Positions 1-2,584 of a stretch of DNA of 64,000 nt are shown here, piece by piece. Source of the DNA: Hanstruepera ponticola (lineage in GTDB: Bacteria; Bacteroidota; Bacteroidia; Flavobacteriales; Flavobacteriaceae); NCBI RefSeq assembly GCF_012931685.1, contig NZ_JABANC010000001.1, forward strand, positions 806,001-870,000. Reading direction: 5' to 3'. A program made the position numbers and the translations under genes. The notes under the pieces are model-generated. The model searched no databases. It had not been told where the DNA came from and worked only from the letters and a program-made list of their open reading frames with translations. Position 1 is the stretch's first letter. Every line of letters begins with the position of its first letter.

Positions 1-1
1 C

Positions 2-196
2 GTCTGCTCAACGCCAAATCAAGACAATCCATTAATGCCTGGCGTAGGCTGTGGAGGTACACCAATTTTAGGTCTAGATGTTTGGGAGCACGCTTATTAC
101 CTAAATTATCAAAATAGAAGGCCTGATTATATTGATGCTTTTTTCAAAGTGATTAATTGGAATGAGGTTGAAAGAAGATATGCTGAAGCAAAATAA
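2..196 (+). CDS. Fe/Mn superoxide dismutase, C-terminal fragment
   Basis: Only the last 64 codons lie in the window; the gene begins to the left. The visible part has the Fe/Mn-SOD signature [15 protein letters not shown], in which the Asp and His are metal ligands in this family, followed by the usual short C-terminal helix. The enzyme dismutates superoxide to oxygen and peroxide. Iron versus manganese preference cannot be judged from this fragment. A strong intrinsic terminator follows about 20 bases after the stop, so this is the last gene of its transcript. Confidence 0.93.
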
Positions 197-217
197 TTAG
201 TAAAGAATTACTATGTA

Positions 218-247
218 AAGCGGACCTATTGGGTTCGCTTTTTTTAT
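218..247 (+). terminator. Intrinsic terminator of the superoxide dismutase gene
   Basis: A 9-bp stem (218-226 with 232-240, one G-U pair) with a 5-base loop is followed by a run of seven T. It sits just after the dismutase stop codon. Confidence 0.85.
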
Positions 248-306
248 TTATATGGTAAATAGATTTTCTACTCATTAATTTTCCGCTTTGGTTGGAATTG
301 GAAATG

Positions 307-378
307 AAAAAAGGTGAACAGAAGTTCACCTTTTTTGCCCCAAATCTACCATAAACTTAACCTACTTATGTTATGGTG
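307..378 (-). ncRNA. Small RNA candidate, copy A (about 72 nt)
   Basis: Read on the minus strand, a block starting CACCATAACATAAG at 378 folds into a hairpin: ACCAT/ATGGT closing, then AAC/GTT and TAA/TTA, loop GTAGG (348-377). An unpaired GATTTGGGGC stretch follows, then a perfect 7-bp terminator hairpin (313-330) ending in six T. A perfect Bacteroidota -7 box, TATATTTG (complement of 382-389), lies three bases before the block, so the block should start at or near +1. The first 42 bases match copy B at 41 positions, while the terminator stems differ. No ORF is present. Function unknown; the RNA call is inference from promoter, fold, terminator and duplication. Confidence 0.6.
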
Positions 379-381
379 AAG

Positions 382-389
382 CAAATATA
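382..389 (-). promoter_or_regulatory. -7 box of small RNA copy A
   Basis: The complement reads TATATTTG, an exact match to the Bacteroidota sigma-A -7 consensus TAnnTTTG. It is three bases upstream of the conserved RNA block. No clear -33 TTG is found at the expected distance, which fits activator dependence. Confidence 0.6.
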
Positions 390-420
390 ACATTGCTTAT
401 TCCTAAACTTAAAAATTATT

Positions 421-453
421 AGATAAACGACTTATAAATTAGGCTAAAATAAA
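421..453 (-). promoter_or_regulatory. Operator-like repeats upstream of small RNA copy A
   Basis: AGATAAACGA at 421 and GGCTAAAATAAA at 442 are related 10-12-mers with starts 21 bp apart. The nearer one begins 32 bp from the inner edge of the -7 box. Copy B has similar sequences at the same distances. They are weaker than the copy B set. Confidence 0.35.
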
Positions 454-503
454 CTAAATGAGAAATTTAGTTATTGAATGATTGTTTAAAATCGGAGAAA
501 AAT

Positions 504-577
504 AAAAAAAGCCGAACCTAAGTTCAGCTTTTTTTGCCCCAAATCTACCATGAACTTAACCTACTTATGTTATGGTG
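504..577 (-). ncRNA. Small RNA candidate, copy B (about 74 nt)
   Basis: This is the second copy of the minus-strand element: the same CACCATAACATAAG start (at 577), the same GTAGG-loop hairpin (547-576), the same GATTTGGGGC tail, and a different terminator stem (511-528) with a T run to 504. The terminator pairs fully only on the minus strand, where one pair is G-U; read on the plus strand that pair is a C-A mismatch. This supports minus-strand transcription. A -7-like TACATTAG (complement of 581-588) sits at exactly the same spacing as in copy A. It could alternatively be a structured 3' end of the upstream purF transcript. Confidence 0.6.
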
Positions 578-580
578 GTA

Positions 581-588
581 CTAATGTA
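581..588 (-). promoter_or_regulatory. -7 box of small RNA copy B
   Basis: The complement is TACATTAG, one mismatch from TAnnTTTG, three bases before the conserved RNA block, as in copy A. No -33 TTG is visible. Confidence 0.45.
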
Positions 589-619
589 ATTTTTATTTAT
601 TTAGAATTTGATATAAAAT

Positions 620-672
620 AGATGAAATGCATTTATTTTAGCTAAAACGCACATTTTTTCAGATAAAATGCA
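620..672 (-). promoter_or_regulatory. Three 12-bp direct repeats upstream of small RNA copy B
   Basis: AGATGAAATGCA (620), AGCTAAAACGCA (640) and AGATAAAATGCA (661) are direct repeats starting 20 and 21 bp apart, two helical turns, so they lie on one DNA face. The nearest begins 32 bp from the -7 box, where an activator would sit. Paired sites with about 21-bp periodicity are typical of LytTR-type regulators; the regulator identity here is inference. Confidence 0.5.
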
Positions 673-685
673 CATTTTCAATATT

Positions 686-2584
686 TTAATAGGCTCTCTC
701 CTTATTGCCTTCATAAAAATTAATGAAGGCTCTATTCACAACACGATTTCCACCAACGGTTGGATAATTTCCGGTAAAATACCAGTCGCCTAAATTTTTT
801 GGACATGCATTGTGCAAATTCTCTATTGATTGGAATATAGTTTCAACTTGAGCATTCACGTTTTCATCAGAAATTAGTTCAGCTATTTTATTTGAAATTT
901 CATCGGCTGTAAATTCAGCATATAAATCTTTAACAAAATTACGAACTTCTTTATCTTCTAAATTTACTTGTGCTTTACATTTATCATAAACCTCCTGAAC
1001 CAAATGATATTTGTTATGCTCTTCGAGTAATTCAAGCATAGCTCTAAACGCAATAAGATCCTCCAATCGTGCCATATCAATACCGTAACAATCAGGATAA
1101 CGTATTTGAGGAGCAGAAGAAACTACAACAATCTTTTTTGGATGCAAGCGATCCATCATTTTAATAATACTTTTCTTGAGCGTTGTTCCTCTAACAATAC
1201 TGTCGTCAATAATTACAAGGTTGTCAGTGGGTTTAATCACACCATAAGTTACATCATAAACGTGTGCAACTAAATCATCACGGCTACTATCTTCAGTTAT
1301 GAATGTTCGTAGTTTGACATCCTTAATGGCTATTTTTTCAATTCGGGGTCTTTCAGAAAGAATATCAGTAACTGTCTCTGCGGATAGACCACCTTTACCA
1401 TCGAGGATTGCCTGCGTTTTCTTTTGATTTAAATGTTCTTCAACGGTTTCAATCATACCAAAAAAAGATGTCTCAGCTGTGTTAGGTATGTATGAAAACA
1501 CAGTGTTTTTAGTATCATTATTGATAGATTCCAAAACCTTTGGCATTAGTAATTTGCCTAATTCCTTGCGTTCTTGATATATTTCAGCATCACTACCTCG
1601 TGAAAAATAAATACGTTCAAAGGAACAAGCCTTTCGCTCTAAAGGCTCTATGATTTTTTTTATAGAAACTTCGCCAGATTTTTTGGTTATAATCGCATGA
1701 CCAGGATCTAGTTCTTTGACATCATCAAAATCAACGTTAAAAACGGTTTGAATTACAGGTCGTTCAGAAGCTACTACTACTACCTCTTCATCTTTGTAAT
1801 AATAGGCAGGTCTAATTCCTGCAGGATCACGTAAAACGAAAGAATCGCCATGACCTAACAAACCAGCCATAGCATAACCACCATCCCAGTTTTTAGAAGC
1901 CTTTTTCAATATTTTGGCTACATTTAGTCTTTCGGCAATTAATGGTGAACACTCACTTTTACTATAGCCTTCTTTTTTTAATTTTTTATAAATTTTAGAA
2001 ACAGCATCATCCAAAAAGTGGCCTATTTTTTCCATAATCGTAATGGTATCAGCTTTTTCTTTGGGGTGCTGTCCTAAATTTACGAGACCATCAAATAACT
2101 GATTTACATTAGTCATGTTAAAGTTACCAGCTACAATCAGGTTTCTGTGCATCCAGTTATTTTGACGCAAAAAAGGATGTACACTTTCTACACTGTTTTT
2201 TCCAAAAGTTCCATAACGTACATGGCCCAGTAAAACCTCACCTATGTATGGAATATGCTTTTTTTGAAGTGCAACATTATCAGCGTATTCAGGATGCTCT
2301 GTTAAATCTTTATTGATACGTTCATTTATTTGAGCAAAAATATCTTGAATAGGTTGTTGAGCAATCGAGCGTACACGACTTATATAGCGTTCTCCTGGTT
2401 TTGTGTCTAATTTAATACTTGCAAAACCAGCACCATCTTGACCACGATTATGCTGCTTTTCCATCATTAAATACATTTTGTTTACACCGTAAAAGGCACT
2501 ACCGTACTTTTCCTTATAAAATTCTAAAGGTTTAAGAAGCCTTATTTGGGCAATTCCGCATTCATGTTTTAAAGCGTCACTCAT
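686..2584 (-). CDS. purF: Amidophosphoribosyltransferase-type glutamine amidotransferase, long form
   Basis: PurF makes phosphoribosylamine from PRPP and glutamine, the first step of purine synthesis. The N-terminal Ntn glutaminase domain is recognisable: nucleophile Cys9 in ECGIAQ, RGQDG at 48-52 and RYGT at 123-126. The phosphoribosyltransferase PRPP loop is VIIDDSIVRGTT at 457-468, followed by SSAPQIRYPDCYG. At 632 residues it is over 100 longer than E. coli PurF (about 505). The extra length is in the glutaminase half and a C-terminal extension, and eight residues precede the Cys. A PfkB kinase gene and purN lie upstream on the same strand. It could be the main PurF or a specialised paralogue; the family assignment is firm, the exact role less so. 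Confidence 0.85.
   Translation of the reverse strand: MSDALKHECGIAQIRLLKPLEFYKEKYGSAFYGVNKMYLMMEKQHNRGQDGAGFASIKLDTKPGERYISRVRSIAQQPIQDIFAQINERINKDLTEHPEYADNVALQKKHIPYIGEVLLGHVRYGTFGKNSVESVHPFLRQNNWMHRNLIVAGNFNMTNVNQLFDGLVNLGQHPKEKADTITIMEKIGHFLDDAVSKIYKKLKKEGYSKSECSPLIAERLNVAKILKKASKNWDGGYAMAGLLGHGDSFVLRDPAGIRPAYYYKDEEVVVVASERPVIQTVFNVDFDDVKELDPGHAIITKKSGEVSIKKIIEPLERKACSFERIYFSRGSDAEIYQERKELGKLLMPKVLESINNDTKNTVFSYIPNTAETSFFGMIETVEEHLNQKKTQAILDGKGGLSAETVTDILSERPRIEKIAIKDVKLRTFITEDSSRDDLVAHVYDVTYGVIKPTDNLVIIDDSIVRGTTLKKSIIKMMDRLHPKKIVVVSSAPQIRYPDCYGIDMARLEDLIAFRAMLELLEEHNKYHLVQEVYDKCKAQVNLEDKEVRNFVKDLYAEFTADEISNKIAELISDENVNAQVETIFQSIENLHNACPKNLGDWYFTGNYPTVGGNRVVNRAFINFYEGNKERAY

Follow-up and report, generated by a model that had tools for sequence, protein, structure and literature searches.

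Putative tandem small-RNA genes downstream of purF in Flavobacteriaceae and their predicted pairing with the mRNA of an unlinked peptide gene

Two small-RNA units between purF and sod

The DNA analyzed here (the window) is a stretch of 64,000 nucleotides from Hanstruepera ponticola (contig NZ_JABANC010000001.1). At its left end, two small minus-strand units lie between purF and the 3' end of a gene that, from its sequence, we take to encode superoxide dismutase (sod; Table 1). The first-pass annotation had described the units as near-identical small RNAs with separate terminators, and rereading the sequence bears this out: minus-strand positions 378-307 and 577-504 are identical at 41 of their first 42 bases, the single difference being C in copy B and T in copy A at base 26, and the terminator stems that follow the shared block differ between the copies. 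As the annotation had it, all stem positions of the copy B terminator are paired when it is read from the minus strand, and reading it from the plus strand leaves one mismatch. Both -7 boxes, of the sigma-A type, were located where it placed them, ending three bases ahead of the shared block. Its proposal that the RNA begins at the hairpin came close. The -7 box of Flavobacterium psychrophilum is reported to lie at -12 to -5 (PMC9723704), and this published spacing places the predicted starts at A377 and A576, one base inside the annotated 378 and 577. The predicted sRNA is ~71-73 nt long and would start at the A of ACCATAAC. Two features go beyond what had been annotated: each copy is preceded by direct-repeat boxes, and another part of the genome encodes an antisense partner.

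Table 1. Features at the locus, in window coordinates
Feature	Position	Strand	Basis or remark
Superoxide dismutase gene, 3' end (presumed)	2..196	plus	convergent neighbor
sRNA copy A	307..377	minus	predicted start A377, GUAGG-loop hairpin, tail GAUUUGGGGC, terminator stem 336-307
-7 box, copy A, TATATTTG	382..389 (389-382)	minus	position and TAnnTT conservation
Activator-like box, copy A, proximal, contains GTCGTTTATCTAATAA	418..433	minus	TT.A.C conservation
Activator-like box, copy A, distal, contains TTTTAGCCTAA	439..453	minus	TT.A.C conservation
sRNA copy B	504..576	minus	predicted start A576; core as in copy A; own terminator stem 535-504
-7 box, copy B, TACATTAG	581..588 (588-581)	minus	position and TAnnTT conservation
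Activator-like box 1, copy B, TGCATTTCATCTA	619..631	minus	
Activator-like box 2, copy B, TGCGTTTTAGCTA	639..651	minus	20 bp from box 1
Activator-like box 3, copy B, TGCATTTTATCTG	660..672	minus	21 bp from box 2
purF (name from the first-pass annotation)	686..2584	minus	upstream neighbor, conserved synteny

The predicted folding energy of the whole unit is -23.0 kcal/mol for copy A (z -3.8) and -22.7 kcal/mol for copy B (z -4.0). By themselves, the 5' hairpin and tail are weak, at -6.7 kcal/mol (z -1.1) and -6.0 kcal/mol (z 0.0), respectively, so the terminator supplies most of the stability of the unit. A 28-base core pattern, allowing up to three mismatches, matched the window twice and none of 100 shuffles, on which ground a chance repeat was rejected. 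The genome holds four sRNA copies, two of them outside the window. The fourth (G000:C2:22627-22700) is on a small contig, a few kilobases from genes that we named by sequence as a restriction-type specificity gene and a histidine kinase/response regulator pair.

Distribution, synteny, and core forms

A covariance-model search of the family, which the first-pass annotation had proposed, matched 202 of 249 sampled Flavobacteriaceae genomes at E ≤ 1e-4 and 210 at E ≤ 0.01 (8 above 1e-4), establishing conservation beyond this genome. Within the genus Flavobacterium, 96 of 121 genomes were matched at E ≤ 1e-4 and 98 at E ≤ 0.001. Strong matches (E < 1e-11) were well separated from weak ones (> 1e-3) in the 22 genomes searched closely; three genomes with intermediate matches (G019, 3.7e-8; G211, 4.2e-7; G189, 1.2e-5) were counted as carriers on score alone. 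Among the matches listed, carriers include Xanthomarina, Winogradskyella, Maribacter, Zobellia, Aquimarina, and Flavobacterium. When a 39-base block was searched with up to three mismatches, 14 of 25 family genomes contained it, and none of 15 genomes from elsewhere in the order did. Of the copies listed for this block, 34 of 36 had no mismatch, and the other two, both from one genome (G009), had two. That genome carries two copies ending in GGGTA, not GGGGC, ~8.6 kb apart (C13:463996 and 472620) on a contig different from that of its twin pair.

The order-wide search matched 29 of 196 genomes at 1e-4, 26 from the same family and three from another (f11), whose four sites were rejected as terminator hairpins lacking the core; all 15 genomes matched among 198 of the phylum were Flavobacteriaceae. 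At Rfam gathering cut-offs, the only two matches were Flavo-1 and a tRNA, neither of them the core, in keeping with the annotation, which knew of no named RNA family with this sequence. Relaxing the threshold to E ≤ 5 over window positions 1-800 brought up unrelated families only, below cut-off, and viral contigs held no exact 21-mer match to the sRNA.

Synteny and core forms were counted over 117 named loci, all selected for holding the core. The purF 3' end was in view at 102 of these, and 101 of the 102 had a same-strand copy less than 1000 nt downstream, with the core 78-316 nt from the purF 3' end (median 118). Wherever both purF and sod were in view (81 of 81 loci), the copies lay between them, convergent with sod. 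Of these 81 arrays, 30 comprise a single copy, 18 have two, 17 have three, 10 have four, 5 have five, and 1 has six; one genome has seven copies in tandem. Terminator stems vary yet stay paired, with both-side changes in 4 of 14 pairs. The hairpin stem, for which a covariation test had also been suggested, was invariant at 10 of 11 pairs in the alignment tested, which makes covariation uninformative on the hairpin.

The core exists in two forms set apart by a one-base difference, GGTAGATT and GGTAAGATT. The former alone was found in 51 of the 117 named loci and the latter alone in 59, including Zobellia, Maribacter, and Flagellimonas; few were mixed or of another form, and L464 and L465 carry both. 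Separately, 41 of the 117 loci have one copy with a GGGA instead of a GGGG tail, always the last from purF (e.g., L091, L096, L101, L107, L130, L150, and L168). A common promoter type like TTTCCCACAATACCAGTA precedes 29 of these 41 copies, which are apparently a subfamily under other control.

Promoters and activator-like boxes

For promoter analysis, 157 nonredundant upstream sequences were drawn from 400 distinct sRNA copies. TAnnTT was present at a fixed distance in 120 of them, and the column table of the 157 upstreams contained no clear -33 element. Farther upstream, TT.A.C occurred at -49 in 75, at -69 in 94, and at both positions in 61 of the 157, compared with 0-7 of 157 at 17 control positions. 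The resulting direct repeat has TGCATTTCATCGAA as its best form and a spacing of 20-21 bp, and it looks like an activator site. LytTR-type regulons have direct repeats of ~9 bp, 21-22 bp apart, with an AlgR-like site. In both spacing and letters, the sRNA-promoter repeat may resemble the sites of LytTR-type regulators (AlgR, AgrA).

A box matrix trained on the sRNA promoters alone was then applied to other genes. Paired boxes (z > 2) were found in 72 of 75 promoters of the peptide gene described below, in 12 of 14 secreted-protein candidates, and in 7 of 124 control ORFs. A cruder pattern scan, which saw both boxes in two peptide loci and one of the pair in most of the others that it detected, placed the peptide-promoter boxes ~28 and ~48 bp upstream of the -7 box (-28 and -48). 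The corresponding positions in the sRNA promoters are -37 and -57, so the peptide-promoter boxes would be one helical turn closer.

Family-wide conservation, fixed promoter geometry, double changes in the terminator stems, and the lack of an Rfam match to the core together support the reading of the twin units as two small-RNA genes, each with its own predicted promoter and terminator and outside the named families. The first-pass annotation had assigned them no function. An own promoter and an intrinsic terminator, recognized by sequence, are features of trans-acting sRNAs; we also found a further such feature, conserved complementarity to start regions of mRNAs encoded elsewhere.

A conserved peptide gene as antisense partner

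The partner gene came to light through an mRNA carrying several longer sites complementary to the sRNA. It encodes a peptide of ~42 residues with the consensus MNxAxNLPEQPTxxESKFKETxKENLxFxKSLxYLTKKxFML, and three examples matched no family in Pfam or NCBIfam. The gene was searched for with a nucleotide pattern first and a protein profile afterward. The profile matched 101 of 249 family genomes at E ≤ 0.01; G086 and G208, whose matches lie inside ORFs of 815 and 281 aa, were dropped from the tally. At most 99 of the 202 sRNA carriers, about half, therefore have a detectable peptide gene. Conversely, when the tables were compared by eye, all 99 peptide-bearing genomes carried the sRNA, versus 202 of 249 overall. 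In the genome of the window, the peptide gene is at C6:597147-597269 on the minus strand, ~209 kb from the sRNA locus on the same contig. A convergent gene, named by sequence as an ABC-transporter ATPase, adjoins the peptide gene in 15 of 16 loci inspected.

Pairing was evaluated at 75 loci. These come from G001 and G002 and from 73 of the sample genomes counted above, the set leaving out 24 of the 99. Two doubtful matches, G161, which has no sensible ORF, and G127, were excluded from the pairing and box tests, and two with an in-frame stop in the profile match (G097 and G251) were retained in the leader tests. Against these 75 leaders, the sRNA core gave a median duplex energy of -33.9 kcal/mol and a median z of -6.4 (40 dinucleotide shuffles), with z < -2 in 71 of 75. 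A perfect complement of at least 10 nt was present in 52 of 75 leaders, and 3 of the 1094 windows used as controls had one. When the region -250 to +45 was aligned locally, at least one site appeared in 70 of 75 loci versus 1 of 541 control windows, and no pairing site in the other five (G093, G112, G221, G231, and G096). A site covers the start codon in 56 of the 75. By hand count, a site begins upstream of the start codon in 68 of 75 loci and two or more do so in 19, while 51 have two to five sites when the early-codon site is included. The genome of the window has four pairing windows, at -24 to -26, -22 to -24, -29.6, and -45 to -47 kcal/mol, the strongest of which spans codons 3-17 and engages nearly all of 45 sRNA bases. 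This complementarity indicates that the conserved sRNA core is predicted to be antisense to an unlinked peptide gene over its leader, its start codon, and its early codons.

The leaders of three loci (L484, L490, and L483, from G149, G262, and G116) contain degenerate antisense repeats of the sRNA in tandem, an arrangement suggestive of growth by duplication. Several genomes have shortened peptides of ~24-29 residues (e.g., ending YVAKKVFLLM; L434 and L436-L445, except truncated readings), and the leaders of these loci are short and dominated by a ACTTAACCTACTTATG-like site at the start codon.

Codon statistics separate the two ends of the gene. Over the last 17 codons (58 ORFs), third positions vary most (0.50 versus 0.37 and 0.17). 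Codons 6-12, which form the second pairing site (31 ORFs), show no third-position excess (0.27, 0.31, and 0.30), a count partly affected by the search itself, as is any count over codons 5-12: 31 of the 75 peptide loci match the nucleotide pattern in these codons, and the profile was built from such loci. The upstream leaders are free of this bias. The C-terminus thus evolves as protein and the pairing site does not, and coding and pairing constraints seem to overlap at the early codons.

The peptide is not the sole cause of sRNA conservation, given how few partners the GGTAAGATT form has: 17 genomes with this core yielded two peptide matches, one well paired (G016, z -4.4) and one poorly (G237, z -1.3). 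Further sRNA targets must exist.

Secreted-protein candidates

Several sites complementary to the sRNA tail lie directly before start codons in relatives. As a bare motif, the tail complement HCCCCAAATCT has no family-specific excess over its backward control in a tally made by hand with 8 self matches removed (109 versus 59 in 25 family genomes; 37 versus 20 in 15 others). In the genome of the window, the pattern CCCAAATCT..ATG had 11 matches, of which 1 was the sRNA, 4 lay before ORF starts, and 6 lay in or antisense to ORFs. The ORFs of the window itself offered no outlier as sRNA targets, the lowest of 58 reaching -19.2 kcal/mol.

The candidates are M14 carboxypeptidases and leucine-rich repeat (LRR) proteins, from domain tests of four proteins; one of two M14 proteins tested has a type IX secretion (T9SS) sorting tail. 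NCBIfam effector/internalin matches of the LRR proteins fell far below cut-offs and were taken as LRR repeats only. Of the four ORFs with a match before the start in the genome of the window, two (MbnP-like and a lipoprotein) had no boxes and were treated as chance. Pairing of the 16 candidates tested ranged from z -1.7 to -3.8, scores that are partly circular, since the candidates were picked for holding a 9-mer; the boxes alone are independent. The box test reported above covered 14 of the 16, without L276 and L300, and its 12 positives are paralogues and orthologues from few genera. Orthologous LRR genes retain both site and boxes in four genomes of one genus.

Proposed mechanism and alternatives

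Considered as a whole, these observations make it probable, in our judgment, that a trans-acting sRNA shares an activator with its targets and caps its own regulon. The twins would be two genes of a base-pairing sRNA of ~71-73 nt, which we infer to be transcribed. One transcription activator, acting via the 20-bp direct repeat, would switch on the sRNA, the peptide gene, and some secreted proteins. Along much of its length, the sRNA core is predicted to pair with the peptide mRNA, from the leader across the start codon into the first codons, and the tail AGAUUUGGGG just before the start codons of the secreted M14 peptidases and LRR proteins. Pairing most likely would block ribosome entry, making repression the presumed direction of control. 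F. psychrophilum is said to lack Shine-Dalgarno sequences (PMC9723704), so blocking of the start region would be a natural route. The sRNA would thereby cap the output of the regulon that contains it, an incoherent feed-forward arrangement in which tandem copies may raise the dose. Of this picture, the computations themselves establish the sRNA family with its conservation and synteny, the complementarity, and the promoter boxes in common.

Only tentatively would we go on to propose a two-locus RNA-RNA system in which the peptide mRNA combines the roles of main target and sponge, setting a threshold for translation of the secreted M14 and LRR proteins. One activator would drive both the tandem sRNA genes at purF-sod and the peptide mRNA at a second fixed locus, the leader and coding start of that mRNA would contain as many as five sequences antisense to the sRNA, and the peptide would perhaps serve as an output signal or membrane-active effector.

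The main rival, which we regard as rather unlikely, makes the peptide mRNA purely a sponge whose antisense sites absorb the sRNA and free the mRNAs of secreted proteins, the peptide itself being secondary. The multiple sites described above speak for it (two to five in 51 of 75 loci, e.g., G149 and G262; at least two upstream of the start codon in the 19 counted by hand), as do the very strong duplexes in the genome of the window. A pure sponge, however, requires neither cover of the start codon, seen in 56 of 75 loci, nor C-terminal codons that evolve as protein, and both RNAs seem to be made under the same activator.

It is improbable that sRNA and peptide form a pair like a type I toxin-antitoxin, with an amphipathic, toxic peptide and the sRNA as a trans-encoded RNA antitoxin. 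In favor of such a pair, the protein is small, its C-terminus is fairly amphipathic (moment 0.44-0.56 in three examples), the start codon is under antisense cover, there are several RNA gene copies, and an RNA antisense to a small-protein mRNA is a feature of these systems. Against it, the two genes, which should occur together, do not do so regularly: at most 99 of 202 carriers have a detected peptide gene, the loci in the genome of the window lie ~209 kb apart, and the sRNA is present in 103 of the 150 sample genomes that gave no peptide match. The peptide gene is moreover fixed beside the convergent ABC-transporter gene in 15 of 16 loci, and the site is common to other mRNAs.

Conservation of the core even where the peptide gene is undetected would suit a block that binds a protein, the RNA titrating an RNA-binding protein and pairing arising as a by-product; we hold this to be very improbable, as 71 of 75 leaders at z < -2 are unlikely to be a by-product. 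That the units are something other than sRNA genes, whether a repeat or the leader of an mRNA for a tiny ORF (ATGGTAGATTTGGGG...), we practically discount: a short frame can be read from the ATG in the copy A core, but a one-base insertion breaks it in about half of the named loci, and the fixed place, promoter, and terminator argue against a repeat or leader.

Significance and relation to known systems

Flavobacteriaceae are major degraders of polymers in the sea and in soil, and little work has been done on their posttranscriptional control; PMC9723704 calls the family understudied. The analysis supplies an Rfam-unmatched sRNA family in about four-fifths of sampled genomes together with a partner gene, a candidate regulon, and a promoter motif that can be tested jointly. 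It also offers a clear example in which pairing to an unlinked RNA apparently constrains both the leader and the early codons of a small-protein gene. The new element appears to be this partner, a conserved and uncharacterized peptide gene seemingly under the same switch as the sRNA.

The closest analogue of the flavobacterial sRNA is FopS of Bacteroides. PMC11697453 describes FopS as multicopy sRNAs of ~65-70 nt with a conserved 5' part and a terminator, the 5' part being single-stranded, encoded at many loci in Bacteroidaceae, mainly targeting SusC mRNAs, and deposited in Rfam. FopS/GibS of Bacteroides thetaiotaomicron are said there to pair near start codons, with mRNAs of outer-membrane transporters and glycoside hydrolases as targets (PMC11697453). 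Size, copy number, and start-site pairing are thus alike. Unlike FopS as so described, the flavobacterial sRNA has a weak predicted 5' hairpin in place of a single-stranded 5' part ahead of the terminator, sits mostly in one syntenic array, and has a peptide-mRNA partner and direct-repeat boxes. Our sRNA model (R1) had no match outside Flavobacteriaceae in the 198 phylum genomes, and neither this search nor that of Rfam at gathering cut-offs detected homology of the core to FopS, which was compared by its description.

Rfp18 of F. psychrophilum is a conserved sRNA whose deletion lowers two metalloprotease mRNAs, according to PMC9723704, and so, by description, it too is a conserved flavobacterial sRNA. 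The reported effect is lower, not higher, target mRNA, and the available text does not mention tandem copies or a purF neighborhood (PMC9723704). Rfp18 might be related to the sRNAs of the window, a comparison by description only; the third stem-loop through which it is described as pairing speaks against identity with a single sRNA unit (PMC9723704). Neither this RNA nor the peptide turned up in the literature searches, although either may still have been published.

Among type I systems with a trans-encoded RNA, IstR/TisB also involves long antisense pairing to a small-protein mRNA; it differs from the present pair, which has several RNA copies and seemingly targets other mRNAs too. Qrr, LhrC, and OmrA/B likewise exist as near-identical copies with envelope or lifestyle targets, in other phyla and with other sequences. 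We know of no sibling sRNA of this type whose activator also drives a peptide mRNA strongly antisense to it. The three are named as sibling sRNAs in PMC11697453. Flavo-1 (RF01705) is likewise a flavobacterial sRNA; identity with it was rejected on the basis of an alignment that revealed a different sequence and fold. One Flavo-1 copy, in F. swingsii (L125:5116-5193), lies just upstream of sod, on the side opposite to the sRNA copies.
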